From: Streptomyces sp. SCL15-4
GTDB taxonomy: Bacteria > Actinomycetota > Actinomycetes > Streptomycetales > Streptomycetaceae
Assembly: GCF_033366695.1 (NCBI RefSeq)
Contig: NZ_JAOBTQ010000001.1
Location: 7,378,001 to 7,442,000 of the forward strand
Direction: 5' to 3'
Length of the DNA: 64,000 bases
Part shown: positions 16,614 to 44,222 of the stretch, one piece after another
How positions within the stretch are numbered: position 1 is the first letter of the stretch
Layout of the letters: the number at the start of each line of letters is the position of its first letter
Notes under the pieces: model-generated
What the model saw: the letters and a program-made list of their open reading frames with translations, nothing else
What the model was told of the DNA's origin: nothing
Databases searched by the model: none
Made by a program: the position numbers and the translations under genes

Positions 16614-17495
16614 ATGCCCGCGTCCGCCCGGCAACGTTGTCACGCAGTCCTCGCCGGACTCGTCACCCTCGCCACCGCCGCCGTCGTGTCCCTCGCCGCG
16701 CCCGCGCCCGCCTCCGCGGCCGGCGGCTGGACCGAGACCGGCTCCGACCGCGCCGACCCGCTGACCGAGAGCCAGGGCCTGACCTCGGTCGAGGTCCCGG
16801 CGAACAGCCCGAACCGCTACACCGGCGTCGGCACCGTCCCGCTCGACGTCGCCGGCCGCGGCTGGAACCACGTCGGCGACCCCGACGCCTCCTACGACGG
16901 CTTTTACATCGAGCCCTACCAGCGGGACGCCGGCAACTCGAAGATGTTCCGGGTGCAGGCGCCCGGCGGTGCCTGGTCGGAGTACGTCCACACGCTGGGC
17001 CCGGGCGAGGCGCCGAACAACTCCTGGGCCGCGATCTCGCCGGACGGCCGGTGGATGCTGTCCGGCGAGTGGGGCACCATGACCCGCCTGCTGGTCTTCC
17101 CGACTCCGGGCGTCAACCCGGCCACCTCGCCCTCGGCGGACCTTCCGCAGGTCTCCACCGTCCGCCTGGACCACGCCGTCCGCGACGTCCAGGGCTGCGA
17201 CTTCACCGGCCCGACCACCTTGCTGTGCTCCTCCGACGACCCGGAGGGCAGCCTCTTCGGCCTCACCAAGCCGCTGCTGCGGATCGACCTGTCCGCCCCG
17301 CCGAGCGGGACCGCCGACGTCACCGGGCACGTCACGGCGGAGCGGCAGCTGCCGCTGCGCAGCTCCTGCCAGGGCTCCTTCGAGGCGGAGGGCATCGACT
17401 ACGACCGCCGCAGCGGCATCCTGCGCGTGATCGTCGTCTCGCCCGGCTTCTGCGTGCTGACGGACAGCAAGACGTACAAGTTCACCCGCGGCTGA
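16614..17495 (+). CDS. Secreted protein of unknown function
   Basis: 293 residues with a clear Sec signal peptide ending ASAAGGW (about residue 36). The mature part has repeated SPDGRWMLSGEWGT and GCDFTGPTTLLCSSDDPEG-type turns that look like beta-propeller blades, and four cysteines that could form disulfides. No catalytic motif was recognised. ATG 16614 is preceded by GAGGAG; the open frame upstream lacks a signal. Confidence 0.7.
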   Translation: MPASARQRCHAVLAGLVTLATAAVVSLAAPAPASAAGGWTETGSDRADPLTESQGLTSVEVPANSPNRYTGVGTVPLDVAGRGWNHVGDPDASYDGFYIEPYQRDAGNSKMFRVQAPGGAWSEYVHTLGPGEAPNNSWAAISPDGRWMLSGEWGTMTRLLVFPTPGVNPATSPSADLPQVSTVRLDHAVRDVQGCDFTGPTTLLCSSDDPEGSLFGLTKPLLRIDLSAPPSGTADVTGHVTAERQLPLRSSCQGSFEAEGIDYDRRSGILRVIVVSPGFCVLTDSKTYKFTRG

Positions 17496-28103: not shown

Positions 28104-28556
28104 ATGCACCGAAGACTGTCCGTCGGCCTGTCCGCCTCGGCTCTCGCCGTGATCACCACCATCGGCGGCGCCACCGCCGCCGACGCCGCTCCTGCCGACA
28201 AGCCCCAGGTCCTCGCGAGCTGGACCCAGACCAGCGCGTCGAGCTACAACCTCTGGGTGGCCGCCCGGGCCAACCAGGCCGCCTGGTCCGCGTACGGCTT
28301 CGACTGGTCGACCGACTACTGCTCCTCCTCGCCGGACAACCCGTTCGGCTTCCCCTTCGCCACGTCCTGCGCCCGCCATGACTTCGGCTACCGCAACTAC
28401 AAGGCCGCCGGCACCTTCAGCGCCAACAAGGCCCGGCTCGACAGCGCCCTGTACGAGGATCTCAAGCGCGTCTGCGTCAACTACTCCGGCGCCACGAAGA
28501 CCGCGTGCGACAGCACGGCGTGGACCTACTACCAGGCGGTGAAGGCGCTCGGCTGA
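28104..28556 (+). CDS. Secreted prokaryotic phospholipase A2
   Basis: Calcium-dependent hydrolysis of the sn-2 acyl bond of phospholipids outside the cell. Signal peptide ends at ADA before mature APADKPQVLASWTQTS. The mature 122 residues carry the catalytic His-Asp pair in CARHDFGYRNYKAAG and the Ca-binding FDWSTDYC segment, and four Cys for two disulfides. The sequence closely follows the S. violaceoruber enzyme as remembered. ATG 28104 has GTGGAGGTG upstream. Confidence 0.95.
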   Translation: MHRRLSVGLSASALAVITTIGGATAADAAPADKPQVLASWTQTSASSYNLWVAARANQAAWSAYGFDWSTDYCSSSPDNPFGFPFATSCARHDFGYRNYKAAGTFSANKARLDSALYEDLKRVCVNYSGATKTACDSTAWTYYQAVKALG

Positions 28557-30412: not shown

Positions 30413-31306
30413 TCAGCTCATCGAGTGACGGGCGGCGGCCGTCCGGCCCGCCCCGGACAGCGCCCAGTCCCACCAGCGGTCCAGCACACCCGGGGCCGGC
30501 GCGTCCGCCGCCACCAGCGCCGGCCAGCCCACCGCCCGCGCCTGCGCGGTGACCTTGGCGCCGCCCGCCACCGGGTCCACCGCGATCACCGGGGTGCCGG
30601 TGCGCAGCGCCAGCACCAGACCGTGCAGCCGGGTGGTGACGACCAGGTCGCAGCGGGCGACGAGGGCGAGGAACTGCTCGGCGGTGGCGCACAGCCGCCA
30701 GTCGTCCACGGCCAGCCGGGTCTCGGCCGGCACCCGCGCGCAGTCCTTGCCGCCCAGCCAGCCGGTGATCGCCTCGTTCACCGCCGCGTGCCGCCGGCGC
30801 GCCCCGTACTCGCCCTGACCCGCGGAGAGCACCACCGCCACGACCGGCGGCAGCGGCCCCAGCGGGGCGCCGGCCGCCAGGTCCCGGCGGGCCGGGGCCC
30901 GGGTGCCGTCCCGGGCGATGATCGTGTGGAAACCGGTGGCCGCGGGATGCGCCGGGTCGACCACCGAGACCCCGGCCGCCAGTCGTGTGCAGGAACTGAA
31001 CCTGACATGCAGGGCGGCGACTTGGGGGCCGTACACCGGACCGCACACGAACAGCAGCGTGCCGTAGGCGTCGGGGTCGGCCGTCTCCAGGGACAGCGCC
31101 CCGGGCCGGAAGCCCGGGCTCCACGCCGTGTCGTGCGGGATGCCGGCGCCGGTCAGTGCCGCCGACGTGTGCCGCTGCGCGAGCACGTCCCCGGCCGTCG
31201 CCTCCCCGTCCGGGAAGCTGAACCAGCCGGTGAGCAGCAGCCTCCTTCGGGGGCCGGCGGGCCCGCGCAGGCTGCGCAGTACGGCTGCCGGGACGTCGTC
31301 GTGCAT
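30413..31306 (-). CDS. Polysaccharide pyruvyl transferase family protein
   Basis: Transfers pyruvate from phosphoenolpyruvate to a sugar as a ketal, adding negative charge to a surface glycan (CsaB/WcaK family). The C-terminal signature is [20 protein letters not shown], and the N-terminal half has the GT-B-like [17 protein letters not shown] region. 297 residues, compact for the family. ATG 31306 follows GGAGGAGG. Divergent from the heptose-type glycan operon, and probably a decoration enzyme for its product. Confidence 0.75.
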
Positions 31307-31636
31307 GGCAGCCTCCTCCGTGGTGACCGAGCCGCCTGAGTCGCGCGAGTACCCCTGAGTCCGGAGAATAAGAATCCAACGCGTGAACCCAACTGGCAGG
31401 GGAACCCAGCTGCCAGTGCCGTCCAGCAAGCGGCGGCCGACCAGGGCGGCCCCGGACGTCTTCCGGGGCCCGGGCCCTGTCCTCTTCCTCTCCGACGGGC
31501 CGGTGCCGCCGGGCCGGTGGCCCGGCGCGCGCCGAAACCACCGCACACCTGCCCACAGCACGCGGACGGCGCGTTCGGCGGCGCCGCTTCAGGGGCGCGG
31601 ACGACGTGGACGAAGGACGACGAAGGAGTAGCCCCC
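31307..31636. other. Divergent promoter region of the glycan locus
   Basis: 330 bp between the pyruvyl transferase and SDR genes. Its left third has the promoter and inverted repeat listed at 31365-31417. The right part has no gene and no clear promoter for the rightward operon. Confidence 0.45.
31365..31417 (-). promoter_or_regulatory. Promoter with overlapping inverted-repeat operator
   Basis: On the minus strand TTGGGT (31387-31392), 16 bp and TATTCT (31365-31370) form a sigma-70-like promoter for the pyruvyl transferase, start about 52 nt before its ATG. ACTGGCAG (31392-31399) and CTGCCAGT (31410-31417) are a perfect 8-bp inverted repeat abutting the -35. GAACCCA-x-CTG also appears twice as a direct repeat. 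A local repressor site is plausible; no regulator gene is in the locus. Confidence 0.4.
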
Positions 31637-32644
31637 ATGACTGGTGACACACCCTTCTCCTGGCGGCGCGCCCTCGTGACCGGCGGCGCCGGCTTCCTCG
31701 GCTCCCACCTGTGCGAGCGGCTGCTGGATTCAGGCGTCGAAGTCGACTGCGCCGACAACCTGGTCTGCGGGCGGCGCGAGAACATCGCGCACCTTCAGGC
31801 GCGGCCCGGCTTCCGGTACGTGCGCTGCGACGTCTGCGCGGCCGACTGCGCCGCACGCCTGCCGGGCCCCTACGACCTGGTCCTGCACTTCGCCTGCCCC
31901 GCCTCGCCCGCCGACTATCTGCGCCTGCCGCTGCAGACCCTGGAGGCCGGCAGCACCGGCACCCGCAACGCGCTGACGATCGCCGAACGCGACGGCGCCC
32001 GCTTCCTGCTCGCCTCCACCTCCGAGGTGTACGGCGATCCCCAGGTCCACCCGCAGCACGAGGGCTACTGGGGCAACGTCAACCCGGTCGGGCCGCGCAG
32101 CGTCTACGACGAGGCGAAACGGTTCGGCGAGGCGCTGGTCACCGCGCACGCCGGCACCCGGGGCACCGACGCGGGCATCGTGCGGCTGTTCAACACCTAC
32201 GGGCCGCGGATGCGCGCCCACGACGGGCGGGCGGTGCCCACCTTCATCTGCCAGGCCCTGGCCGGCGAACCGCTCACCGTGACCGGCGACGGCAGCCAGA
32301 CCCGCTCGCTGTGCTACGTCGACGACACCGTGGACGGCATCCTCCGGGTCGCCGCGAGCAGGTCCCTGCGGCCGGTGAACATCGGCGGCAGCGACGAGAT
32401 CACCGTCGCCGACCTGGCCCGCCGGGTGGTCGCCCTCACCGGCTCCCGCTCCCCGATCGCGTTCGTCGACCGGCCCGTGGACGACCCCGGCCGGCGCCGC
32501 CCCGACACCACCCTCGCGCGCGAGCTGCTCGGCTGGTCGCCGCAAGTCCCCTGGGAGGAGGGCCTGAAGCAGACCATCGCCTACTTCGCCGCCCCGACCC
32601 CGCAACCGGTGCCGCGCGCGCAGGACCCGGCCCCGCAGTCCTGA
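31637..32644 (+). CDS. UDP-glucuronate decarboxylase-like SDR
   Basis: Extended short-chain dehydrogenase acting on a nucleotide sugar. N-terminal NAD motif [13 protein letters not shown], then [18 protein letters not shown], catalytic STSEVYGD and YDEAKRFGE, and [10 protein letters not shown], a set typical of UDP-xylose synthase (UXS). 335 residues. Expected reaction: UDP-glucuronate to UDP-xylose; other UXS-like 4-keto enzymes are possible. It is not HldD. First gene of the rightward glycan operon; ATG 31637 has GAAGGAG upstream. Confidence 0.8.
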
Positions 32645-32676
32645 CCCCCGCCCCTTTCCGGCCCTGGAGACAGCGC

Positions 32677-34311
32677 ATGCACGTCCTCGGAATCAACGCA
32701 CTCTTCCACGACCCCGCCGCCGCCCTGATCACCGACGGCCAGGTCGTGGCGGCGGCGGAGGAGGAGCGGTTCTCCCGCCGCAAGCACGGCAAGCGGCCCG
32801 TACCCTTCTCCGCCTGGGAGCTGCCCGAGCGGTCGGCCCGCTGGTGCCTGGAGCAGGCCGGCCTCACCCCGTCCGACCTGGACGCCGTCGCCTACTCCTA
32901 CGACCCCGTCCTCGCCCGCCCCGCCGAGGAGCTGGGCCTGCACGACCCCTGGGACCACCTGCGCCAGGAGTACGCCCGGCAGGCCCCCGGCTTCCTCGCC
33001 GAGGCACTGCCCGGACTCGACCCGGACAAGGTGCGGTTCGTCCCGCACCACGTGGCGCACGCCGCCTCCGCCGGGCCCGTCTCCCCGTACCCCGACTGCG
33101 CCGTGCTCGTCCTGGACGGCCGCGGCGAGTGCGGCTCCCACCTGGCCGGCCGGTACACCAACCGCGAGCTGACCGTCCTCACCGCCCAGCAACTGCCGCA
33201 CTCCCTCGGCCTGTTCTACGAGGACCTCACCCAGCACCTCGGATTCCTGCGCAGCAGCGACGAGTTCAAGGTCATGGCGCTCGCCTCCTACGGCACCCCG
33301 CGCTTCGCCGACCGGCTGCGCGAGTACGTCCGCGCCGGCGACCAAGGCGGCTTCCTGGCCCGCCCGGTGCCCTGGGCCGATCTCGTCCCGCCCCGCCCGG
33401 CCGGCGGCGCCTGGCACCAGGACCACGCCGACCTCGCCGCCAGCGCCCAGCTCTGCCTGGAGGAGGTCACGCTGGCGCTCGCCCGCTGGCTGCGCGAACG
33501 CACCGGCGAGGACGCCCTCACCCTGGCCGGCGGTGTCGCCCTGAACTGCGTCGCCAACACCCGGCTGTGGCGCGAGAGCGGCTTCACCCACGTATGGGTG
33601 CAGCCCGCCGCGGGCGACGCCGGCACCGCGCTCGGCGCCGCCGCGCACATCGCCGGGCAGAAGGACACCCTGGAGCCGATGGAGACGGCCGCCCTGGGCC
33701 GCGGCTGGAGCGACGCCGAACTGCGGGCCTGGCTCGAACGGGCCGCCGTACCGTACGAGGAGCCCGCCGACATCGCCGAGACGGCCGCCGAGGCACTGGC
33801 CGCCGACGGGATCGTGGCCTGGTTCCAGGGACGCGGCGAGTACGGGCCGCGCGCGCTCGGCCACCGCTCCCTGCTCGCCCACCCCGGCAAGGCGGAGAAC
33901 CTGGAGCGGCTCAACGCCGTCAAGGGACGCGAGGAGTTCCGGCCGGTCGCGCCGATGGTGCTCGCCGAACGCGCCGCGGAGATCTTCGACGGGCCGCTGC
34001 CCAGCCCGCACATGCTGTTCGTGCACGACGTGGCCGCCGGCTGGAAGTCCCGCATCCCGGCCGTGGTGCACGTCGACGGCACCGCCCGCATCCAGACCGT
34101 CGACCGCGCCCGAGAACCCCTGGTGGCCCGGATGATCGACGGCTTCGAACGGCGCACCGGACTGCCGGTGGTGGTCAACACCAGCCTGAACACCGCCGGA
34201 CGGCCCATGGTCGACGACCCCCGGGACGCCCTGGAGTGCTTCGGCTCGGCCCCCGTGGACCTGCTGGTCCTCGGCCCGTTCGCGGTCCGCCGGGGAAAGG
34301 CGTTCGCATGA
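32677..34311 (+). CDS. NodU/CmcH-type O-carbamoyltransferase
   Basis: Transfers a carbamoyl group from carbamoyl phosphate to a hydroxyl, probably on a sugar. N-terminal Kae1-like ASKHA domain starts MHVLGINALFHDPAAAL with HHVAHAAS (metal-binding His) and later LTLAGGVALNCVANT; the C-terminal NodU domain has GRGEYGPRALGHRSLLA and NTSLNTAGRPMVD. 544 residues, full length. Its stop overlaps the next start as ATGA. Confidence 0.92.
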   Translation: MHVLGINALFHDPAAALITDGQVVAAAEEERFSRRKHGKRPVPFSAWELPERSARWCLEQAGLTPSDLDAVAYSYDPVLARPAEELGLHDPWDHLRQEYARQAPGFLAEALPGLDPDKVRFVPHHVAHAASAGPVSPYPDCAVLVLDGRGECGSHLAGRYTNRELTVLTAQQLPHSLGLFYEDLTQHLGFLRSSDEFKVMALASYGTPRFADRLREYVRAGDQGGFLARPVPWADLVPPRPAGGAWHQDHADLAASAQLCLEEVTLALARWLRERTGEDALTLAGGVALNCVANTRLWRESGFTHVWVQPAAGDAGTALGAAAHIAGQKDTLEPMETAALGRGWSDAELRAWLERAAVPYEEPADIAETAAEALAADGIVAWFQGRGEYGPRALGHRSLLAHPGKAENLERLNAVKGREEFRPVAPMVLAERAAEIFDGPLPSPHMLFVHDVAAGWKSRIPAVVHVDGTARIQTVDRAREPLVARMIDGFERRTGLPVVVNTSLNTAGRPMVDDPRDALECFGSAPVDLLVLGPFAVRRGKAFA

Positions 34312-35306
34312 GCGACGCCCCCGCCTACACCGTCGTCGTCCCCACGATCGGCCGGCCCTGCCTCGCCGAGTGCCTGCGCGCGCTCGCCGAGGGCGCCGTC
34401 GCGCACACCCCGCACGAGGTGGTCGTCGTCGACGACCGGCCGGCGCCCGAGGGCGGCCTGCCGCTGGGGACCGCGGGGCAGCTGCTGGACCGGGTGCGCA
34501 CCCTGCGCACCGGCGGCAAGGGACCGGCCGCCGCCCGCAACGCCGGCTGGCGCACCGTCCGCACCCCCTGGACGGTGTTCCTGGACGACGACGTCCAGGT
34601 GCTGCCGGACTGGTCCCGGCGGCTCGCCGAGGACCTGCGCGCGGCCGGCCCCGACGTCGGCGGCGTCCAGGGGCGGCTGCGCGTCCCGCTGCCCGAGGAC
34701 CGCCGGCCCACCGACTGGGAACGCACCACCAAGGGCCTGGAGAACGCCGCCTGGGCCACCGCCGACATGGCCTACCGCACCGACGTCCTCAAGCGGACCG
34801 GCGGCTTCGACGAACGCTTCCCGCGCGCCTTCCGCGAGGACGCCGACCTCGCCCTGCGCGTCGAGCGGGCCGGCTGGAGCCTGACCCGGGGCACCCGCGT
34901 CACCCGGCACCCGGTCCGCCCCGCCCACTGGTGGGCCTCGCTGCCCGCCCAGCGCGGCAACGCCGACGACGCCCTGATGAACCGGCTGCACGGCCGCGAC
35001 TGGTGGCACCGCGCCCAGGCGCCCCGCGGCCGGCTGCCCCGCCACCTGGTGGTCACCGGCGCGGCCCTCGCCGCCGCCGCGTGCGCGCTGGCCGGACGGC
35101 GCCGCACCGCGACCGCCTGCGCGGCCCTGTGGACCCTCGGCACCGCCGAGTTCGCCCTCGCCCGTATCCTGCCCGGCCCGCGCGACCCCCGGGAGATCGC
35201 CGGGATGCTCGGCACCAGCGTGCTCATCCCCCCGCTCGCCGTGCGGCACTGGATGCGCGGCGTCGTCCGTCACCGCAACGCCCGCCCGCTGGGAGGCGCC
35301 GGATGA
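34308..35306 (+). CDS. GT2 glycosyltransferase with C-terminal membrane segments
   Basis: GT-A fold enzyme: VVVPTIGRP start, nucleotide-binding VVVDDRPAPE, metal DxD as VFLDDDVQVLPDW (about 84-96) and acceptor-site FREDADLALRVERAGW. Two hydrophobic spans near residues 245-295 suggest membrane attachment. 332 residues. Linked by 4-bp ATGA overlaps on both sides. Confidence 0.85.
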   Translation: MSDAPAYTVVVPTIGRPCLAECLRALAEGAVAHTPHEVVVVDDRPAPEGGLPLGTAGQLLDRVRTLRTGGKGPAAARNAGWRTVRTPWTVFLDDDVQVLPDWSRRLAEDLRAAGPDVGGVQGRLRVPLPEDRRPTDWERTTKGLENAAWATADMAYRTDVLKRTGGFDERFPRAFREDADLALRVERAGWSLTRGTRVTRHPVRPAHWWASLPAQRGNADDALMNRLHGRDWWHRAQAPRGRLPRHLVVTGAALAAAACALAGRRRTATACAALWTLGTAEFALARILPGPRDPREIAGMLGTSVLIPPLAVRHWMRGVVRHRNARPLGGAG

Positions 35307-35845
35307 CCACCGTGTCCGCGATCCTGTTCGACCGCGACGGCACCCTCGTCGCCGACGTGCCGTACAACGGCGACCCGGACCGGGTCCGGCTGCTGCCCGG
35401 CGCCCGCGAGGCCGTCGCGCTCGCCCGGTCCCACGGCCTGGCCACCGCCGTGGTCAGCAACCAGTCCGGCATCGGCCGCGGGCTGCTCACCGCCGGGCAG
35501 GTCCGGCGGGTCAACGAGCGCGCCGACGCGCTGCTGGGCGGGCTGGACCTCTGGCTGTTCTGCCCGCACACCGCCGAGGACGGTTGCCCCTGCCGCAAGC
35601 CCCGGCCCGGCCTGGTCCGCGCCGCCGCCGTCCGGCTGGGCGTGCCGCCGGCCGCCTGCCTGGTCGTCGGCGACATCGCCGCCGACGTGCTGGCCGCCCG
35701 CGCCGCCGGAGCCCGGGGCGTGCTCGTGCCCAACGCGGCCACCGCACCGGAGGAGACCCGGCGGTTCGCCGGGCACAGCGCCCCCGACGTGCTCACCGCC
35801 GTACGAAGCGCCCTCGGCGCCGCCGCGGGGAGGGCACCGGCATGA
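35303..35845 (+). CDS. gmhB: GmhB-like heptose-bisphosphate phosphatase (HAD-IIIA)
   Basis: Removes the 7-phosphate from D-glycero-D-manno-heptose 1,7-bisphosphate. HAD nucleophile FDRDGTL (Asp10, Asp12), SNQSGIGRG (52-60) and zinc-binding loop CPHTAEDGCPC (Cys87, His89, Cys95, Cys97) followed by RKPRPG, as in GmhB. 180 residues. The same operon holds GmhA- and HldE-like genes, which supports the role over histidinol phosphatase. Confidence 0.85.
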   Translation: MTTVSAILFDRDGTLVADVPYNGDPDRVRLLPGAREAVALARSHGLATAVVSNQSGIGRGLLTAGQVRRVNERADALLGGLDLWLFCPHTAEDGCPCRKPRPGLVRAAAVRLGVPPAACLVVGDIAADVLAARAAGARGVLVPNAATAPEETRRFAGHSAPDVLTAVRSALGAAAGRAPA

Positions 35846-36852
35846 GATCCCTCGTCGTCCGCCTCGACAGCTTCGGTGACGTGCTCCTCGCCGGGCCCGC
35901 CGTCCGCGCCGTCGCCGCCCACAGCACCCGTGTCACCCTGCTGTGCGGCCCGCGCGGCGCGGACGCCGCCCGGCTGCTGCCCGGCGTGGACGACGTCCTG
36001 GTCTGGGAGGCGCCCTGGGAAGGCTTCGACCCGCCCCCGGTCCGCCCGGCCGACATCGACGCCCTCCTCGGACGGCTGCGCGCCGGCGCCCACGACAGCG
36101 CGCTCGTCCTCACCTCCCACCACCAGAGCCCGCTGCCCGCCGCCCTGCTGCTGCGCCTCGCCGGCATCGGCCGGATCGGCGCCGACAGCACCGACCACCC
36201 CGGCCGCCTCCTCGACGTGCGCCACCGCCGGCTGCCCGGCCGGCACGAGGCCGAGGCCGCCCTCGACACCGCCGCCGCCATGGGCTTCACACCGCCCCCG
36301 GGCGACGACGGGCGGCTGCGCGTCCTGCCGCCCCCGGACACCGGCGGCCTGACCGGCAACGGCCCCTACGTCGTCCTGCACCCCGGCGCCAGCGCCCCCG
36401 CCCGCGCCTGGAGCCCGCACCGCTGCGCCGAGGCGGTCACCCTGCTCGCCGACGCCGGGCACCGGGTCGTCGTCACCGGCGGCCCCGACGAGCGGGACCT
36501 CACCCGGCGGGTCGGCGGCGACGCGGCCGTGGACCTCGGCGGCCGGACCTCCCCGCGCACCCTGGCCGGGGTGCTGCGCATGGCGGACGTCGTGATCAGC
36601 GCCAACACCGGACCCGCCCACCTCGCCGCCGCCGTCGGCACCCCGGTCGTCTCCCTCTTCGCGCCCGTCGTCCCGGCCGGACGCTGGGCGCCCTACGGCG
36701 TCCCCGTCATCCTGCTCGGCGACCAGTCGGCGCCGTGCGCGGACACCCGGGCCCTGACCTGCCCGGTGCCCGGCCACCCCTGCCTGGACGAGGTCACCGG
36801 CCAGGACGTGGTGCGCGCGGTGCACAAACTCATCCAGGAGCGGCCCTCATGA
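35842..36852 (+). CDS. GT9 glycosyltransferase (heptosyltransferase family)
   Basis: 336 residues. Family 9 signatures: N-terminal VVRLDSFGDVLLAGPAVRA, central VVLHPGASAPARAWSP, and ANTGPAHLAAAVGTPVVSLF near the end, the ADP-heptose site of WaaC/WaaF/RfaF-type enzymes. Likely adds heptose to a glycan carrier. Starts and ends in ATGA overlaps. Confidence 0.88.
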   Translation: MRSLVVRLDSFGDVLLAGPAVRAVAAHSTRVTLLCGPRGADAARLLPGVDDVLVWEAPWEGFDPPPVRPADIDALLGRLRAGAHDSALVLTSHHQSPLPAALLLRLAGIGRIGADSTDHPGRLLDVRHRRLPGRHEAEAALDTAAAMGFTPPPGDDGRLRVLPPPDTGGLTGNGPYVVLHPGASAPARAWSPHRCAEAVTLLADAGHRVVVTGGPDERDLTRRVGGDAAVDLGGRTSPRTLAGVLRMADVVISANTGPAHLAAAVGTPVVSLFAPVVPAGRWAPYGVPVILLGDQSAPCADTRALTCPVPGHPCLDEVTGQDVVRAVHKLIQERPS

Positions 36853-37811
36853 ACATCCTCGTCTGGCATGTGCACGGGTCCTGGCTCACCGCCTTCGTGC
36901 AGGGCCCGCACACCTACCTGGTCCCGGTCACCGAGGACCGCGGCCCCGACGGCCTCGGCCGCGCGGTGACCTGGGACTGGCCCCCGTCCGTCCGGGAAGT
37001 CACCCCCGCCGCGCTGCGGGACGCCGACATCGACCTGATGGTGCTGCAACGCCCGCACGAGCCCGGCCTCGCCCTGCGCTGGACCGGCCGCCGGCCCGGC
37101 CTGGACGTGCCCGCCGTCTACGTCGAGCACAACAGCCCCGACGCCTCGCCCGAACGCCAACTCCACCCGCTCGCCGCCCAGTCGGCGATTCCCCTGGTGC
37201 ACGTCACCCACTTCAACCGGCTGATGTGGGACAGCGGCCTGGCCCCCACCGAGGTCGTGGAGCACGGCATCGTCGACCCCGGCCCGCTGTGGACCGGCAC
37301 CGAGCGGCGCGCGGCCGTCGTCGTCAACGAGCCGGTGCGCCGGGGCCGTACCACCGGCACCGACCTGCTGCCCCGGTTCGCCCGCTCGGTCCCGCTGGAC
37401 GTCTTCGGCATGGGCACCGGCTCACTCGCCGGCCACCTCGGCCTGCCGCCCGGGCGCTGCCGCGCCCGGGACCTGCCGCAGCACGAGCTGCACCGGGAGA
37501 TGGCCCGGTGCCGCCTGTATCTGCACCCCGTGCGCTGGACCTCGCTCGGCCTGTCCCTGCTGGAGGCCATGTTCCTCGGCATGCCCGTGGTCGCCCTGGA
37601 CACCACCGAGGTCCGCGAGGCCGTACCCGAGGGCGCCGGGGTGGTGTCGAACCGACTCGACGTACTGGAGGACGCGGTACGGGCCTTCCTCGCCGATCCC
37701 GGGCACGCCCGCGCGACCGGCGCGGCGGCCCGGGCCGCCGCCCGCGCCCGCTACGGAGAGCGGCGCTTCCTGGACGACTGGGAGCGCCTGATCAAGGAGG
37801 TCACCCGATGA
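36849..37811 (+). CDS. GT4-like glycosyltransferase
   Basis: 320 residues. The N-terminal domain is atypical (MNILVWHVHGSWLTAFVQGP), but the C-terminal half has VFGMGTGSLAGHLG, then LHPVRWTSLGLSLLEAMFLG and MPVVALDTTEVREAVPEGAG, the donor site of GT-B GT4 enzymes with E-x7-E spacing. Donor and acceptor unknown. Confidence 0.8.
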   Translation: MNILVWHVHGSWLTAFVQGPHTYLVPVTEDRGPDGLGRAVTWDWPPSVREVTPAALRDADIDLMVLQRPHEPGLALRWTGRRPGLDVPAVYVEHNSPDASPERQLHPLAAQSAIPLVHVTHFNRLMWDSGLAPTEVVEHGIVDPGPLWTGTERRAAVVVNEPVRRGRTTGTDLLPRFARSVPLDVFGMGTGSLAGHLGLPPGRCRARDLPQHELHREMARCRLYLHPVRWTSLGLSLLEAMFLGMPVVALDTTEVREAVPEGAGVVSNRLDVLEDAVRAFLADPGHARATGAAARAAARARYGERRFLDDWERLIKEVTR

Positions 37812-39040
37812 GCCGCATTCCGCACTCGGCCGGGCGCGTCGCCATGGTCTCCGAGCACGCCAGCCCGCTGGCCGCGCTCGGCGGACCGGACGCGGGCGGC
37901 CAGAACGTGTACGTGGCGCAGGTCGCCCGGCAGCTCGCCAGGAAGGGATACCGGGTCACCGTGTACACCCGGCGGGACTCGGCGGGCCTGCCGGACCGGG
38001 TGACCCTCATCGACGGCGTCCAGGTGGTCCACGTCCCCGCCGGGCCGCCCGCACCCGTCCCCAAGGACGAACTCCTGCCCCACATGAGCGAGTTCGGGAA
38101 CTTCCTGGCCCGGCAGTGGGCACAGCGCCCGCCGCAGGTGGTGCACGCCCACTTCTGGATGTCCGGCCTGGCCGCCCTGGCCGGCGCCCGCGACCCGGAC
38201 ATCCCGGTCGTGCAGACCTACCACGCGCTGGGCACGGTCAAGAAGCGCTACCAGGGCACCGCCGACACCAGCCCTCCGCAGCGACTCGCCGTCGAGGAGG
38301 CCATCGGGCACGAGTGCGCCCGGATCATCGCCACGTGCAGCGACGAGGTGGCCGAACTGAAGGCCATGGGCCTGCCCGAGGACCGGATCAGCGTCGTGCC
38401 GTGCGGCGTCGACCCCGAACAGTTCACCCCGGTCGCCCGCAACCGCCCGCCCGGCGCCCGCAAGCGGCTGCTGGCCGTCGGCCGGCTCGTGCCCCGCAAG
38501 GGCTTCGACCGCGCCATCCGCGCCCTGGCCGGCGTCCCCGACGCCGAACTCCTCATCGCCGGCGGCCCCGAGGCCGACCTGCTGCGCACCGAACCCGAGG
38601 CCGCCCGCCTGTACGGCATCGCCCGCGAGTACGGCGTCCTGGACCGCGTCACCCTGCTCGGCGGCGTCGGCCGCGCCCGCATGCCCCGGCTGATGTCCAG
38701 CGCCGACCTGGTCCTGTCCCTGCCCCGCTACGAGCCCTTCGGCATCGTGCCGCTGGAGGCCATGGCCTGCGCCACACCCGTCGTCGCCACCGCCGTCGGC
38801 GGCCAGCTCGACACGGTCGTGGACGGCACCACCGGCCTGCTGGTCCCGGCCGACGACGACTACGACCTCGGCGCGGCCCTGCGCGCCCTGCTCGCCGACC
38901 CCGGCCGGCTCGCCCGGTACGGCACCGCCGGCCGCGCCCGGGTCCTCGCCCACTACACCTGGGACCGGGTGGCCGACGGCGTGGCCGGGGTGTACGGCGC
39001 CGTGTCCTCGATCCGCTCGCTCTCGGGAGTCGTCCGATGA
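37808..39040 (+). CDS. GT4 glycosyltransferase (group 1)
   Basis: 410 residues. N-terminal GGPDAGGQNVYVAQVARQLA is the GG-x-x-x-Y-V-x-x-LA loop of sucrose-phosphate-synthase/MshA-type GT4 enzymes; the C-terminal site has AVGRLVPRKGFD, SLPRYEPFGIVPLEAMACAT and VVDGTTGLLVP. Could use UDP- or ADP-sugar donors. Between two ATGA overlaps. Confidence 0.9.
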   Translation: MSRIPHSAGRVAMVSEHASPLAALGGPDAGGQNVYVAQVARQLARKGYRVTVYTRRDSAGLPDRVTLIDGVQVVHVPAGPPAPVPKDELLPHMSEFGNFLARQWAQRPPQVVHAHFWMSGLAALAGARDPDIPVVQTYHALGTVKKRYQGTADTSPPQRLAVEEAIGHECARIIATCSDEVAELKAMGLPEDRISVVPCGVDPEQFTPVARNRPPGARKRLLAVGRLVPRKGFDRAIRALAGVPDAELLIAGGPEADLLRTEPEAARLYGIAREYGVLDRVTLLGGVGRARMPRLMSSADLVLSLPRYEPFGIVPLEAMACATPVVATAVGGQLDTVVDGTTGLLVPADDDYDLGAALRALLADPGRLARYGTAGRARVLAHYTWDRVADGVAGVYGAVSSIRSLSGVVR

Positions 39041-39753
39041 ACACCGCCACCGACACCACGCACTGCGACGACCTCGCCAAGGCCCTGGAGGCGTTCCGCG
39101 ACCACGCCCCCCTCCTGGAGCGCTGGGGCACCGAACTCGCCCGGCGGCTCGGCTCGGGAGCGCGGCTGCTCGTCGCCGGCAACGGCGGCAGCGCCGCCCA
39201 GGCCCAGCACCTCACCGCCGAACTCGTCGGCCGCTACCGCGAGGACCGCCCGCCGTTCTCCGCCCTCGCCCTGCACGCCGACACCTCCTCCACCACCGCG
39301 ATCGCCAACGACTACGGCGTCCAGGAGGTGTTCGCCCGCCAGGCCGCCGCCCACGGCCGCCCCGGCGACGTGCTCCTGCTGCTGTCCACCAGCGGCGCCA
39401 GCGCCAACCTGCTGTCCGCCGCCGACCGCGCGCACCGGCTCGGGATGACCGTGTGGGCGCTGACCGGACGCTCTCCCAACCCGCTGCAACTCGGCGCGGA
39501 CGACGCGGTGTGCGTCGACGCCCCGGCCACCGCCACCGTCCAGGAACTCCACCTGGTCGCGGTGCACATGCTCTGCGAGACCTTCGACCGGGCGGTGACG
39601 CGCGAGGAGGCCGGACGCGCGGACGCGGGCGCCGACGGAGCACCGAGTGCCGACGGCAGACCGGGGGTCGTGGGGCGGCTCGTCGGCCGGGCCCGCACCG
39701 TCGGGCGGGCCGCGCCCGGCGGGCCCGTCGCCCCGCGGGAGGGGCAGGCATGA
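39037..39753 (+). CDS. gmhA: GmhA-like sedoheptulose-7-phosphate isomerase (SIS)
   Basis: Converts sedoheptulose 7-phosphate to D-glycero-D-manno-heptose 7-phosphate. SIS motifs GNGGSAAQAQHLTAEL (48-63), ANDYGVQEVF, STSGASANLL (117-126) and QELHLVAVHMLCE (169-181) all match GmhA, including the conserved Gln-x-x-His. About 45 extra C-terminal residues, rich in Gly, Ala, Arg and Asp, are unusual for the family. First step of the heptose pathway. Confidence 0.88.
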   Translation: MNTATDTTHCDDLAKALEAFRDHAPLLERWGTELARRLGSGARLLVAGNGGSAAQAQHLTAELVGRYREDRPPFSALALHADTSSTTAIANDYGVQEVFARQAAAHGRPGDVLLLLSTSGASANLLSAADRAHRLGMTVWALTGRSPNPLQLGADDAVCVDAPATATVQELHLVAVHMLCETFDRAVTREEAGRADAGADGAPSADGRPGVVGRLVGRARTVGRAAPGGPVAPREGQA

Positions 39754-41174
39754 GCGACACACCGACCCCCCTGGTCGTCGTCGGCGACGCCCTGCTCGAC
39801 CACGACCTGTGCGGCCGGGCCGAACGGCTGGCCCCGGACGCCCCGGTGCCCGTCGTGCACGGCACCCGCCGCAGCTCCCGCCCCGGCGGCGCCGCCCTCG
39901 CCGCCTGCCTCGCGGCGGCCGACGGACGCCCCGTCACGCTGGTCACCGCCCTCGGCGCCGACCCCGCCAGCGACACCCTGCGCGAACTGCTGGAGGGCCG
40001 GGTCCGCCTGGTCGAGGTGCCCCTGGAAGGCACCCTCGCCAGCAAGACCCGGGTCCTGGCCGGAGACCGGCCGCTGCTGCGCCTGGACGACGGCGAGGGC
40101 CGCGCCCGCGAGGCCACCGGGCAGGCGGTGGCCGCGGTCGCGGAGGCCGGGGGAGTCCTCGTCGCCGACTACGGCCGCGGCACCGCCGACGTCCTGCGGG
40201 ACGCGTTGGCCCACACGGCGGCCCCCGTCGTCTGGGACCCCCATGTGCGCGGCCGGCCCCCCGTGCCCGGCGTCCGCCTCGCCACCCCCTCCGCCCAGGA
40301 GGCCCGCGCCTTCGCCCGGCGGGCCGCCGGGGACGAGGAGGCGGCCGGCGGGACGGCGGGGCTGCGCACCGCCGCCGGCGACGCCCGCGCCCTGGTCCGG
40401 GCCTGGCGGGCCCGGGCCGTCGCGGTGACCCTCGGCGAACGCGGCGCCCTGCTCTCGCACGGCGAGACCCCGCTGCTGGTGCCGACCCCGGCCGCCGCCA
40501 CCGGCGACCCCTGCGGCGCCGGCGACCGGTTCGCCGCCGCCGCGGCCGGCCTGCTCGCCGACGGCGCCCTCACCGAGGCCGCCGTCCAGGCCGCCGTACA
40601 CGCCGCCACCCGCTACGTCGCCGAGGGCGGCGCCCGCGCGCTCGCCACCCCGGACGGGACGGAGACGGCCGCGCGCCAGGCCCCGGCCGACGGCGACACC
40701 ACCGCCGACGCCGTGCGCACCGCCGCCCGGGTCCGGGCCGCGGGCGGCACCGTCGTCGCCGCGGGCGGCTGCTTCGACCTGCTGCACGCCGGCCACGTCG
40801 CCCTGCTCCAGGCCGCCCGCCGGGCCGGCGACTGCCTGATCGTCTGCCTCAACTCCGACGACTCCGTCCGCCGCCGCAAGGGCGACGGCCGCCCTCTCGT
40901 GCCGGCCGCCGACCGGGTACGGGTGCTGCGCGCCCTGGAGTGCGTGGACGCCGTAGCCGTCTTCGACGAGGACACCCCCGAACGCGTCCTCGGCGAACTG
41001 CGCCCGCACATCTGGGCCAAGGGCGGCGACTACGCGCGGACCCGGCTGCCCGAACAGCCCCTGGTGGAGAGCTGGGGCGGGCAGGTCCTGCTGCTGCCCT
41101 ACCTCGACGGCCGCTCCACCACCGTCCTCGCCCGCCGGGCCGCCCTGGCCCCCACGGCAGGAGAGGGCACGTGA
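39750..41174 (+). CDS. hldE: HldE-like heptose 7-phosphate kinase / heptose 1-phosphate adenylyltransferase
   Basis: 474 residues joining two activities. Residues 1-310 are a PfkB-type kinase beginning VVVGDALLDHDLCGRAERLA with APVPVV, and the catalytic GDPCGAGD (252-259); residues 335-474 are a nucleotidyltransferase with GGCFDLLHAGHVALL (339-353), RRKGDGRPLVP and KGGDY. This is the HldE layout and full length. It would make ADP-D-glycero-beta-D-manno-heptose with GmhA and GmhB. After its stop 219 bp without coding sequence precede the next gene, the first break in the operon. Confidence 0.88.
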   Translation: MSDTPTPLVVVGDALLDHDLCGRAERLAPDAPVPVVHGTRRSSRPGGAALAACLAAADGRPVTLVTALGADPASDTLRELLEGRVRLVEVPLEGTLASKTRVLAGDRPLLRLDDGEGRAREATGQAVAAVAEAGGVLVADYGRGTADVLRDALAHTAAPVVWDPHVRGRPPVPGVRLATPSAQEARAFARRAAGDEEAAGGTAGLRTAAGDARALVRAWRARAVAVTLGERGALLSHGETPLLVPTPAAATGDPCGAGDRFAAAAAGLLADGALTEAAVQAAVHAATRYVAEGGARALATPDGTETAARQAPADGDTTADAVRTAARVRAAGGTVVAAGGCFDLLHAGHVALLQAARRAGDCLIVCLNSDDSVRRRKGDGRPLVPAADRVRVLRALECVDAVAVFDEDTPERVLGELRPHIWAKGGDYARTRLPEQPLVESWGGQVLLLPYLDGRSTTVLARRAALAPTAGEGT

Positions 41175-41393
41175 CCCCCGCGCCCACCGCCCGCACCCCG
41201 GGCCGCCCCACCACGCGTCCACGGCCGCCCCGTGCGCCCCACGGCCCCGCGGCGAGCGCGGCCACCGGGCGCATGCGGTCCGGGCTTCCCGGTTACCCGG
41301 GTGGAGACGAGCCGGCCCGGACCCTGCCGCCCGGCCCGGCACCGCCCCACCGTCCGCCCCCCGCTTCCCCGCCCACCCCCGGAGGACCACCCG

Positions 41394-42383
41394 GTGACCA
41401 CTGAGCAGACTCCGCGTGTCCTGGTCCTGCGCGCGCTCGGACTGGGCGACCTGCTGGCCGGCGTGCCCGCGTTGCGCGGGATCCGGCGCGCCTTCCCCGG
41501 GCACCAGGTCGTCCTCGCCCAGCCGCCGGCCCTCACCGAACTCGCCCTGGCCACCGGGGCGGTCGACACCGTGTTCCCGGCCGAGGCGCCGGGCCGCGCG
41601 GTGCCCGACCTCCGCCACTGGCCGGGACCGCCCCCCGAGGTGGCCGTCGACCTGCACGGCAGCGGACCCGAGAGCCGCGACGCCCTGGCCGCCCTGCGCC
41701 CGCGCCGGCTGCTCGCCCACGCCTGCCCGGACGGCCCGCCCTGGCCCGCCCACGTCAACGAACGCGACCGCTGGTGCGCCTTCCTGCGCGGCTACGGCAT
41801 CCCCGCCGACCCCCGCGACCTGCGGCTGCCCCCGCCCGGCACACCCTCCCCGGCCCCCGGCGCGGTCGTCGTGCACCCCGGCGCGGCCTCCGGCTCCCGC
41901 CGCTGGCCGCCGGAGCGGTTCGCCGCCGTCGTCCGGTGCCTGCGCGCGGCCGGCCACCGCGTCGTCCTCACCGGCGGCCCCGGCGAGGACTCCCTGGTCC
42001 GCGAGGTCGCCGAACGCAGCGGCCGGCCCGGCACCGACGTGCTCACCGGCGGCCTGCCGCCCGCAAGGCTGTCCGCCCTCGTCGCCGGGGCGTCCCTGCT
42101 GCTCAGCGGCGACACCGGCCTGGCCCACCTCGCGGTCGCCCACGGCACCCGCTCCGTCACCCTGTTCGGCCCCGTCTCCCCCCGTCTGTGGGGACCGCCC
42201 CCGGGCCCGGACCACCTGGCCCTGTGGAAGCCCGGCCCGCCCGGCGACCCGCACGGCCTCGCCCCCGACGCCCGCCTGCTGCGCATCGGCACCGGCGAGG
42301 TCGCCGCGGCCTGCCTGACCCTCCTGCGGGACGCCCGCGGCCGGCGCCGGCCCGCCGGAGCGGAGGTGGCGCATGTCCACTGA
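41394..42383 (+). CDS. Second GT9 glycosyltransferase (heptosyltransferase family)
   Basis: 329 residues. VLVLRALGLGDLLAGVPALRG at the N-terminus, VVVHPGAASGSRRWPPERFA in the middle and LLSGDTGLAHLAVAHGTRSV before VTLFGPVSP, all GT9 hallmarks with ADP-heptose transferases as prototypes. GTG 41394 with GGAGGACC upstream was chosen; the frame is open further but reads Pro/Arg-rich. Its 3' end overlaps the next gene by 11 bp. Confidence 0.87.
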   Translation: MTTEQTPRVLVLRALGLGDLLAGVPALRGIRRAFPGHQVVLAQPPALTELALATGAVDTVFPAEAPGRAVPDLRHWPGPPPEVAVDLHGSGPESRDALAALRPRRLLAHACPDGPPWPAHVNERDRWCAFLRGYGIPADPRDLRLPPPGTPSPAPGAVVVHPGAASGSRRWPPERFAAVVRCLRAAGHRVVLTGGPGEDSLVREVAERSGRPGTDVLTGGLPPARLSALVAGASLLLSGDTGLAHLAVAHGTRSVTLFGPVSPRLWGPPPGPDHLALWKPGPPGDPHGLAPDARLLRIGTGEVAAACLTLLRDARGRRRPAGAEVAHVH

Positions 42384-43314
42384 GCACGCTCCCGCCCGCC
42401 CCCGCCCGCCCACCGTCCCCGGCGACCCGCGGATCACCGTCGCCGTCATCACCCGCGACCGCGCCGCCAGCCTGCTGCGCACCCTGGACGCCCTGGCCGC
42501 GCTGCCCGAACGGCCGCCCGTCGTGGTCGTCGACAACTCCCGCGACGACACCACCCGCCGGGCCGTCGCCGGCCACCCGGCCATCGCCCGCCTGCTGCGC
42601 CCGGCCGGCAACACCGGCGCCCTCGGCCGCAACCTGGCCGCGCGCCACGCCCGCACGCCCTACGTCGCCTTCAGCGACGACGACTCCTGGTGGGAGCCCG
42701 GCAGCCTGGCCCGTGCCGCCGACCTCCTCGACGGGCACCCGCGGCTCGGCCTGCTCGCCGCCCGCACCCTGGTCGGCGACGAGGCCGCCGAGGACCCCCT
42801 CAACGCCGTCCTCGCCGCCTCACCCCTGCCGGCCGAGCCCGACCTGCCCGGCCGCCCGGTGCTCGGCTTCCTGGGCTGCGCCTGCGTGGTCCGCAAGGAG
42901 GCCTTCCTCGGCGTCGGCGGCTACCATCCGCTGCTCTTCTTCGGCGGCGAGGAGACCCTGCTCGCCTACGACCTGGCCGCCGCCGGCTGGGGCGTCGCCT
43001 ACGAACCCGCCCTGCGCGCCCGCCACCACCCCGGCGACCACACCCGCGCCGGCCGCTCCGCCCTCGTCCGCCGCAACCACGTCCTCACCGCCTGCCTGCG
43101 CCGCCCCTGGCCCGTCGCCCTGCGCGCCGGCACCGGCCTCGCGGTGGCCGCCGCGACCGGCCGGCCCGGCGCCTCCCGCGCCCTGAAGGAGGCCGTCGCC
43201 CGGTTCCCGGCCGCGCTCGCCCGCCGCCGGCCCCTGCCCCCGCACGTCGAGCACGCCGCCCGGCTGCTCGACCGGGAGGCGGCCGGACCCGCCGCGGAAG
43301 GCGGCGCGCCATGA
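42373..43314 (+). CDS. GT2 glycosyltransferase, tandem copy 1
   Basis: 313 residues. TVAVITRDRAASLLRTLDAL, VVVVDNSRDDTTRR, and metal site YVAFSDDDSWWEPGSL, with later FGGEETLLAYDLAAAGWG, form a GT-A GT2 fold. It is clearly paralogous to the following gene; both share the TPYVAF-x-DDD-x-WWEPGSL block. Overlaps that gene by 4 bp (ATGA). Confidence 0.87.
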   Translation: MSTEHAPARPRPPTVPGDPRITVAVITRDRAASLLRTLDALAALPERPPVVVVDNSRDDTTRRAVAGHPAIARLLRPAGNTGALGRNLAARHARTPYVAFSDDDSWWEPGSLARAADLLDGHPRLGLLAARTLVGDEAAEDPLNAVLAASPLPAEPDLPGRPVLGFLGCACVVRKEAFLGVGGYHPLLFFGGEETLLAYDLAAAGWGVAYEPALRARHHPGDHTRAGRSALVRRNHVLTACLRRPWPVALRAGTGLAVAAATGRPGASRALKEAVARFPAALARRRPLPPHVEHAARLLDREAAGPAAEGGAP

Positions 43315-44222
43315 CCGCCCGGCCCGGCCCCGACCACCGCACGACCGTCGTCGTGATCACCCACAACCGCCGCGAGGAACTGCTGCGCACCCTCGGCCTG
43401 CTGCGCCGGCTGCCCGAACGCCCGCCCGTGATCGTCACCGACAACGCCTCCACCGACGGCACCGCCGAAGCGGTCGCCCGGGACTTCCCCGGCATGACCC
43501 TGCTGCGCCCCGGCCGCAACCTCGGCGCCATCGGCCGCAACCTGGCCGTGCAGCGCGTGCGCACGCCCTACGTCGCCTTCTGCGACGACGACACCTGGTG
43601 GGAGCCCGGCAGCCTGCGCCGCGCCGCGGACCTGCTGGACCCCCGGCCCCGGCTGGCCGCCGTCACCGCCCGGATCCTCGTCGAACCCGAAGGCACCGAG
43701 GACCCGGTCGTCCCCGAACTGCGCGACTCCCCGCTGACCGGCCCCGACTGGCTGCCCGGACCCGCGCTCGGCTCCTTCCTCGCCGCCGCCACCGTGCTGC
43801 GCACCGAGGCCTTCCGGGCCGCCGGCGGCTTCCATCCCGGCCTGTGGCTCGGCGGCGAGGAGGAACTGCTCGCCTGCGACCTCCAGCGCCGCGGCTGGTG
43901 GCTCGCCTACGCCGGGGAACTCACCGTCCACCACCACGCCTCCACGCTGCGTGACAGCACGGCCCGCCGCGTCCTCGGCCTGCGCAACACCCTGTGGTTC
44001 ACCTGGCTGCGCCGCCCCCTGCTGCCGGCCCTGCGCCGCACCGGCCACCTGATCCGCACCGTGCCCCGGGACGCCGCCTCCGCCCGCGCCTTCGTCCACG
44101 CCACCGCCGGACTGCCGTGGGTGCTGCGCCAGCGCGCCCCCGTGCCGCCGGACCTGGAGCACCGGATCGCCACGCTGGAACGCGCCCGCCGGGACTCACC
44201 CGCACGGCGGTACGTCGGCTGA
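43311..44222 (+). CDS. GT2 glycosyltransferase, tandem copy 2
   Basis: 303 residues, paralogue of the preceding gene: VVVITHNRREELLRTLGLL, VTDNASTDGTAEAVA, YVAFCDDDTWWEPGSL, and LGGEEELLACDLQRRGWW. The C-terminal 60 residues are similar to copy 1 (ARRDS/LEHRIATLE versus VEHAARLLDRE). Last gene of the glycan locus. Confidence 0.87.
   Translation: MTARPGPDHRTTVVVITHNRREELLRTLGLLRRLPERPPVIVTDNASTDGTAEAVARDFPGMTLLRPGRNLGAIGRNLAVQRVRTPYVAFCDDDTWWEPGSLRRAADLLDPRPRLAAVTARILVEPEGTEDPVVPELRDSPLTGPDWLPGPALGSFLAAATVLRTEAFRAAGGFHPGLWLGGEEELLACDLQRRGWWLAYAGELTVHHHASTLRDSTARRVLGLRNTLWFTWLRRPLLPALRRTGHLIRTVPRDAASARAFVHATAGLPWVLRQRAPVPPDLEHRIATLERARRDSPARRYVG

Follow-up and report, generated by a model that had tools for sequence, protein, structure and literature searches.

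A cwg-type operon in Streptomyces predicted to build a cell-envelope glycan with D-glycero-D-manno-heptose

The window analysed here is a stretch of 64,000 nucleotides from Streptomyces sp. SCL15-4 (contig NZ_JAOBTQ010000001.1). Its positions 31637–44222 hold a compact run of 12 genes on the forward strand, including GmhA, GmhB, a two-domain HldE and seven glycosyltransferases, two of them of family GT9. All of the named genes were open, GC3-biased ORFs with matches to their families, as the original prediction had claimed for this set. That prediction had extended the locus over 30413–44222; the operon accounts for 31637–44222, whereas 30413–31306 is a divergent gene outside it. At the 11 junctions in the operon, the genes overlap by 4 bases in eight cases and by 11 in one, and the other two leave gaps (32 and 219 bases). 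The dN/dS values of the operon genes against three relatives (0.17–0.53) imply purifying selection and, together with the gene order kept in relatives, indicate that the locus is more than a product of chance.

The first two genes, which had been overlooked earlier, encode a putative UDP-glucuronate decarboxylase/UDP-xylose synthase and a putative O-carbamoyltransferase. The former (g33, cwgA-like, 31637–32644, + strand) starts at the ATG at 31637, preceded by GAAGGAG, and matches a solved human-type UDP-glucuronate decarboxylase at 1.3e-90. Five genes of the NDP-sugar dehydrogenase family were over the cut-off in the genome and could feed g33. The idea that the 219-base gap marks the loss of a dehydrogenase gene present in other loci was rejected, as a search for that gene in the gap gave no match better than E = 7. 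The carbamoyltransferase (g34, cwgB-like, 32677–34311, + strand) has both carbamoyltransferase Pfam domains and matches solved chains of a carbamoyltransferase (2.7e-89) and of TobZ (1.4e-85).

The isomerase, kinase, phosphatase and nucleotidyltransferase of the ADP-D,D-heptose pathway are all present with conserved catalytic residues. For GmhA, the sedoheptulose 7-phosphate isomerase (g40, cwgH-like, 39037–39753, + strand), the assignment rests on family, solved relatives and residues. GmhB, the heptose 1,7-bisphosphate 7-phosphatase (g36, cwgD-like, 35303–35845, + strand; NF006506, 1e-32; 4pnh, 9.1e-26), keeps the HAD aspartates and the zinc loop. The closest solved relatives of both are heptose enzymes, and their active-site residues were invariant or almost so. 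HldE (g41, cwgI-like, 39750–41174, + strand), combining heptose 7-phosphate kinase and heptose 1-phosphate nucleotidyltransferase, is the sole copy in the genome; its best solved match is named a putative cytidylyltransferase and another a heptose 7-phosphate kinase. HldE domain II sits at its cut-off of 181.5 bits, with scores of 179.3 and 182.6 in two scans. The NCBIfam equivalog cut-offs were not reached by GmhA (165.4 vs 276 bits), GmhB (113.1 vs 178) or HldE (263.1 vs 521). No ADP-heptose 6-epimerase (HldD) was over the cut-off in the genome, where the best of 12 weak matches scored 107.1 vs 274.6 bits. The conserved catalytic residues and the lack of an HldD over the cut-off lead us to predict ADP-D-glycero-D-manno-heptose as the donor.

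Promiscuous NDP-heptose synthetases (STTR5) carry the motif (F/L)XXGRSTT. The window protein does not match it, having YLDGRSTT, in which Arg5 is kept and the first residue is Tyr. All 81 streptomycete-type rows have Tyr as this first residue, and 75 of them have the Arg.

Both GT9 proteins have the domain PF01075 (78.4 bits in g37 and 70.3 in g42), and they represent two classes. In the class of g42 (cwgJ-like, 41394–42383, + strand; D240), the residue corresponding to Asp261 of E. coli heptosyltransferase I is kept in 76 of 76 sequences; in the class of g37 (cwgE-like, 35842–36852, + strand; Asn255), it is Asn in 88 of 88. The system shares enzyme families, conserved catalytic residues and GT9 transferases with the Gram-negative ADP-heptose pathway and WaaC and WaaF. 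It differs from the lipopolysaccharide system in its monoderm host, in the lack of an HldD over the cut-off, in scores below the equivalog cut-offs and, at the transferase step, in the Asn for Asp261 of one GT9.

A rival view is that the enzymes act on another sugar phosphate, such as a hexose, and that their heptose names mislead. The sub-cut-off scores and the Asn of g37 would fit such a reading, as would the BlmC/BlmD/BlmE relatives of bleomycin synthesis, GT9, carbamoyltransferase and HldE homologues that serve hexoses (PMC7017467). We consider it improbable: the window has both GmhA and GmhB with active sites that are invariant or nearly so, and both are absent from the 19.5-kb stretches around the related genes of two NRPS loci, L107 and L108.

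The other five glycosyltransferases are three of GT2 (g35, cwgC-like, 34308–35306; g43, cwgK-like, 42373–43314; g44, cwgL-like, 43311–44222), a short GT4 that served as the locus marker (g38, cwgF-like, 36849–37811) and an MshA-like GT4 (g39, cwgG-like, 37808–39040), all on the + strand. In the search for transmembrane segments, matches in several proteins fell on ordinary hydrophobic strands, and the C-terminal segments of g35 were sub-threshold only.

The divergent gene g32 (30413–31306, − strand) travels with the operon. Its match to polysaccharide pyruvyltransferase is weak (43 bits over 38 residues), and CsaB scored 26.9 vs 213.1. In comparisons with its predicted structure, GT-B-like glycosyltransferase chains headed the fold list, suggesting a GT-B-like fold. 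Whole-model alignments had an rmsd near 17, so that the firm structural match is confined to the C-terminal half.

The twelve genes match the cwg operon of S. coelicolor (SCO6179–6190, cwgA–L) in families and order, with genes 8 and 9 being GmhA and HldE like cwgH and cwgI. They are also colinear, 12 of 12, with L092, an operon found behind an exact copy of the S. coelicolor cwgA sigma-E site. In contrast, identity to the S. coelicolor genes is 58–75%, the neighbours differ, the window lacks a clear sigma-E site, and g32 lies divergently at the 5′ end rather than at the 3′ end as in the S. coelicolor-type operon. Judged from these sequences, the window locus is of the cwg operon type, a kind already described. 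In the literature, cwg is presented as a cell-wall glycan operon and a target of sigma-E and envelope stress, with the label "cell wall glycan" itself a prediction. ADP-heptose is also already described as feeding the synthesis of antibiotics in Streptomyces, septacidin among them. For both reasons, the earlier statement that the role of the pathway in streptomycetes had not been established went too far. PMC3123327 does not mention cwg, and PMC13390465, on Actinoplanes EPS, does not mention heptose, cwg or carbamoyl. Among the matches listed by a search of a literature collection with few subscription papers, there was no report of heptose in the Streptomyces wall.

A block upstream of the operon (31370–31430, + strand) is conserved in near relatives and has no recognisable sigma-E promoter. 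We scored upstream regions with a model built from 39 published sites, the cwgA site included. The best score before the window operon was 7.4, below the 10.07 that 95% of random pieces do not exceed, and no clear sigma-E promoter was found there; the known sites had a median of 14.4, with 4 of 39 below 7.4. Eleven of 66 upstream regions were above the 95% line, against about 3 expected by chance, with four of the 11 (L092, L093, L095 and L096) preselected by the cwgA sigma-E site itself. Since the window operon lacks a clear site, it is the S. coelicolor operon that provides the link to envelope stress. An inverted repeat at 31393–31416, perfect over 7+7 bases, was dismissed as a signal, being at chance level (44 of 100 shuffles had a match at ≤2 mismatches).

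When the locus was compared across actinomycete genomes, the marker g38 was found in 52 of 150 Streptomyces genomes and in 25 of 236 Actinomycetota genera. The operon is accessory, being present in roughly one streptomycete in three. Searches for homologues of g38 and of g34 each listed, as the best 120 of 8000 scored, close Streptomyces relatives and carry nothing on distant ones. Among 56 long streptomycete loci, the ten-gene core was colinear in all 39 that had all ten genes. Six of the 56 lacked GmhB and both GT9s and retained HldE, and in L094 a near-exact sigma-E site precedes only remnants of the operon; the gene set is therefore not indispensable.

The core order was alike in distant Actinomycetota. 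Across 20 phylum-wide loci, GmhB was fused to the GT2 counterpart of g35 in 12 and to a GT9 in one, and GmhA to the GT4 counterpart of g39 in three. These fusions, new in this analysis, appear to tie heptose supply to glycan assembly. With the families and active-site residues, they support the predicted route from sedoheptulose 7-phosphate through ADP-D,D-heptose to a glycan.

The product had been suggested to be a cell-wall polymer or a natural product; the former side, widened to an envelope glycan, is favoured, and the latter less so in view of the cwg link and the phylum-wide order. A natural-product cluster would add a heptose, perhaps carbamoylated, to a small molecule, as for septacidin, hygromycin B or bleomycin-type compounds. 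Septacidin and hygromycin B are described as likewise using heptose derived from sedoheptulose 7-phosphate in Streptomyces, although they are single natural products. The accessory distribution of the operon fits this reading too. L107 and L108, which we take to be bleomycin-like loci, have HldE, carbamoyltransferase and GT9 adjacent, in the families of the window, although in an NRPS context. In the HldE tree, their HldEs lie far from the window type, and the cwg HldEs of streptomycetes group in a 15-member clade free of natural-product members (support 0.996). A clean split of natural-product HldEs holds for this clade only: deeper nodes are weak, and L111 has a tridomain HldE that groups with cwg-type HldEs from across the phylum, which speaks for the natural-product reading. 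Gene calling and scanning around the window locus revealed no scaffold-building gene, whether NRPS, PKS or other. Given also the core order shared with distant Actinomycetota and the reported envelope-stress control in S. coelicolor, a natural-product cluster is unlikely.

We thus propose that the cwg-type operon probably builds a cell-envelope glycan containing D-glycero-D-manno-heptose. From the genes, residues, order, fusions and distribution read in the sequences, we infer the activities, donors, linkages and cell-wall destination as follows. GmhA would convert sedoheptulose 7-phosphate to heptose 7-phosphate, and the HldE kinase domain would add the 1-phosphate. Once GmhB has taken off the 7-phosphate, the nucleotidyltransferase domain of HldE would yield ADP-D,D-heptose, used directly in the D,D form because no HldD was found. 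The most likely heptose-transferring enzyme is g42; for g37, which has Asn in place of Asp261, a changed donor or acceptor is most likely. One sugar would be decorated by the carbamoyltransferase, g33 would supply UDP-xylose, and the GT2 and GT4 enzymes would finish an oligosaccharide in the cytoplasm. Functions for the acceptor, export and polymerisation would have to be encoded outside the locus.

The glycan could instead be a short oligosaccharide on lipid or proteins rather than a wall polymer. Seven transferases are enough for a short chain, the locus has no polymerase or flippase gene, clustering found none recurring in at least three phylum-wide loci, and protein heptosylation is known in E. 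coli. The sequence is neutral on this point, and the label "cell wall glycan" is itself predicted; we regard a short oligosaccharide as a serious if rather unlikely alternative.

Heptose of this kind, a seven-carbon sugar, is familiar chiefly from the Gram-negative outer membrane. The core of the cwg-type locus occurs widely across the branches of Actinomycetota. If our proposal of an envelope glycan is true, actinobacterial envelopes would have an extra surface glycan, and Gram-positive bacteria would include one more source of ADP-heptose, which animals sense as a foreign molecule. Only tentatively, the glycan may be an old, Actinomycetota-wide structure with carbamoylated D,D-heptose at its centre, equivalent in a monoderm to the lipopolysaccharide inner core. 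In it, heptose enzymes would be fused to the glycosyltransferases that use their product, and the Asn-for-Asp261 GT9 class would have moved to a heptose donor that is modified or carries a nucleotide other than ADP. For the cwg operon, so far a named envelope-stress target, this analysis predicts a specific building block: D,D-heptose, accompanied by carbamoyl and, in certain lineages, by pentose. UDP-xylose synthase was present in only 4 of the 20 phylum-wide loci.

On the forward strand at 31637-44222, gene calling by codon-position GC gave twelve genes encoding, in order, a UDP-glucuronate decarboxylase, a carbamoyltransferase, a GT2 glycosyltransferase, GmhB, a first GT9, two GT4s, GmhA, HldE, a second GT9 and two further GT2s. 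Eight junctions were 4-base overlaps and one was an 11-base overlap, with gaps of 32 and 219 bases at the other two. The genes named in the original prediction were correct, though it had omitted the decarboxylase and the carbamoyltransferase. Divergent from the operon lay g32 (30413-31306), which had a weak family match (43 bits over 38 residues) and a GT-B-like predicted fold. The flanking genes, for hemerythrin, STAS/ANTAR, MpaB-like and FAD proteins, were common mainly to near relatives. No gene for export, polymerisation or anchoring of a glycan was found within the window locus, and among the loci clustered no family with such a function was shared by at least three.

The cwgA sigma-E site, as printed in PMC6767563, was used as a query against 392 genomes of the genus Streptomyces. 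It was exact in one, either S. coelicolor itself or a very close relative, and had one or two mismatches in five more. The operon behind the exact site had 12 genes colinear with those of the window at 58-75% identity. Its eighth and ninth genes encoded GmhA and HldE, the same places as in the S. coelicolor cwg operon, where cwgH and cwgI are GmhA and HldE according to PMC5839063. In PMC6767563, cwg appears among the sigma-E targets as an operon of 12 genes for 'cell wall glycan synthesis'; PMC3902916 and PMC13011467 give a much similar account. We conclude that the window carries a genuine and intact cwg-type operon, a known kind of locus.

Among five cwgA-site loci fetched, all twelve genes were called in three, two genes were in pieces in L093, and L094 held remnants. 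In L094 (G136:C1:6064500-6084000), a near-exact sigma-E site was followed only by the first GT2 (g35), the second GT4 (g39) and part of g38, the short GT4 that marks the locus.

The HldE scan confirmed at least 413 loci, of which 80 were kept, 56 of them at least 20.9 kb long. The ten genes from the decarboxylase to the second GT9 were all called in 39 of these 56 and were colinear in every one; all twelve were called in 27 and colinear in 24. Six of the 56 were without GmhB and both GT9s. Reduced streptomycete operons of this kind (L054, L056, L062, L064, L066, L072) kept the decarboxylase, carbamoyltransferase, GT2, GT4, GmhA and HldE. Because such reduced and remnant operons exist, the cwg-type gene set can be lost. 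In a sample of 150 Streptomyces genomes, including the source genome, HldE scored >100 bits in 53 (over the cut-off in 49), g38 was found at 1e-20 in 52, both were present in 47, and both lay within 8 kb in 45. HldE was detected at 1e-50 in 21 of 61 relatives. Across the Actinomycetota, g38 was found in 39 of 396 genomes, representing 25 of 236 genera.

For 35 g38 loci outside Streptomyces, 20 picked by hand for diversity were read. In this set, where g38 was present by choice and some contigs were short, the first GT9, g38 and HldE occurred in all 20 loci, g39 in 19, GmhA in 18, GmhB in 17, the carbamoyltransferase in 15, the second GT9 in 14, g35 in 13, a dehydrogenase by HldE in 13, the terminal GT2s g44 and g43 in 7 and 5, UDP-xylose synthase in 4 and g32 in 1. 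The dehydrogenase, a short-chain type between HldE and the second GT9 (L130-L146), was an operon member in those 13 loci but is missing from the window; modification of the heptose is a possible role. Fusions joined GT2 to GmhB in 12 loci, GT4 to GmhA in 3 and GmhB to GT9 in 1, in frames taken from assemblies of which several were fragmentary. As read from sequence, these fusions tie sugar supply to assembly independently of annotation.

The GmhA (g40) aligned with solved phosphoheptose isomerases at 1.4e-38. Its His58, Glu62, Gln169 and His172 showed no variation in an alignment of unfused copies, which had 78 streptomycete-type rows and 15 from other actinomycetes. For GmhB (g36), the nearest solved structure was 4pnh (9.1e-26), and the HAD aspartates and Cys-His-Cys-Cys loop were conserved, by column, in 54-56 of 56 streptomycete-type rows and in all four unfused others. 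In HldE, the kinase Asp was present in 81 of 81 rows and the HxGH histidines in 80. We presume that these conserved residues have the roles assigned to them. All three proteins scored below curated whole-protein cut-offs, as diverged members would. The source genome had one HldE copy, no HldD over the cut-off, and five NDP-sugar-dehydrogenase-family genes. From this and the enzyme set, the predicted nucleotide sugars are ADP-D,D-heptose and UDP-xylose, the predicted ADP-D,D-heptose route being complete in the window locus. According to PMC11573728, the STTR5 motif, (F/L)XXGRSTT, marks promiscuous nucleotidyltransferases. The window HldE matched the motif, as given there, at all positions save the first; NDP-heptoses other than ADP-heptose are therefore possible. 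His replaced the Arg of this motif in four of the six reduced operons (L054, L056, L062, L064).

Asp261 of E. coli heptosyltransferase I was kept in the alignment of the second GT9 (62 of 62 and 14 of 14 rows), whereas the first GT9 had Asn there (68 of 68 and 20 of 20), rows being allotted to either by best BLAST score. We infer that the two classes use different donors or acceptors. We would tentatively call new this fixed Asp/Asn split, the fusions and the phylum-wide core.

The original prediction left a cell-wall polymer and a natural product as alternatives. Six streptomycete genomes had HldE without g38; HldE loci were read in three of them, one of which contributed two copies, and an extra copy was read in a fourth genome. 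In two of these five loci, L107 and L108, adjacent genes for HldE, carbamoyltransferase and GT9 lay in an NRPS setting, an association that would suit a natural product; these two presumably resemble bleomycin loci (BlmC/D/E). Both GT9s had Asp at the Asp261 position, by motif; in L107, a carrier protein adjoins HldE. PMC7017467 describes BlmC/D/E as hexose enzymes, so such relatives of HldE, carbamoyltransferase and GT9 can serve hexoses. In the literature searched, with subscription journals mostly outside its scope, no report of heptose in the Streptomyces wall was found. A third locus, L111 (G110:C1:7392000-7411500), encoded a tridomain GmhA-HldE of 655 residues, next to a carbamoyltransferase, a GmhB relative and a GT9 in which the motif around the Asp261 position was not found; the locus is possibly an uncharacterised heptose natural-product locus. 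The remaining two HldEs had a single nucleotidyltransferase domain only.

In a tree of 38 HldEs, excluding three short pieces and L081, the window copy and fourteen streptomycete copies formed a clade (support 0.996) from which all three natural-product-type HldEs were absent. L111 fell among the phylum-wide rows, and the deeper nodes of the tree were weak. The natural product is less favoured than an envelope glycan, because the gene order is conserved and the S. coelicolor copy is linked to envelope stress.

Against this reading, no clear sigma-E site was found before the window operon; the lack of export, polymerisation and anchoring genes, the hexose use of relatives, the reduced and remnant operons and the literature result given above weigh on the same side. 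Upstream of g33, a block at 31370-31430 without a visible sigma-E site was conserved among near relatives in the window's clade and may be where the actual promoter or operator lies. Elsewhere, the small protein encoded at 28149-28556 has a phospholipase A2 domain of the prokaryotic type. An ARAGORN tRNA-Phe (anticodon aaa) at 16848-16935 on the reverse strand, within a predicted forward-strand gene (16686-17495), is probably a false positive.
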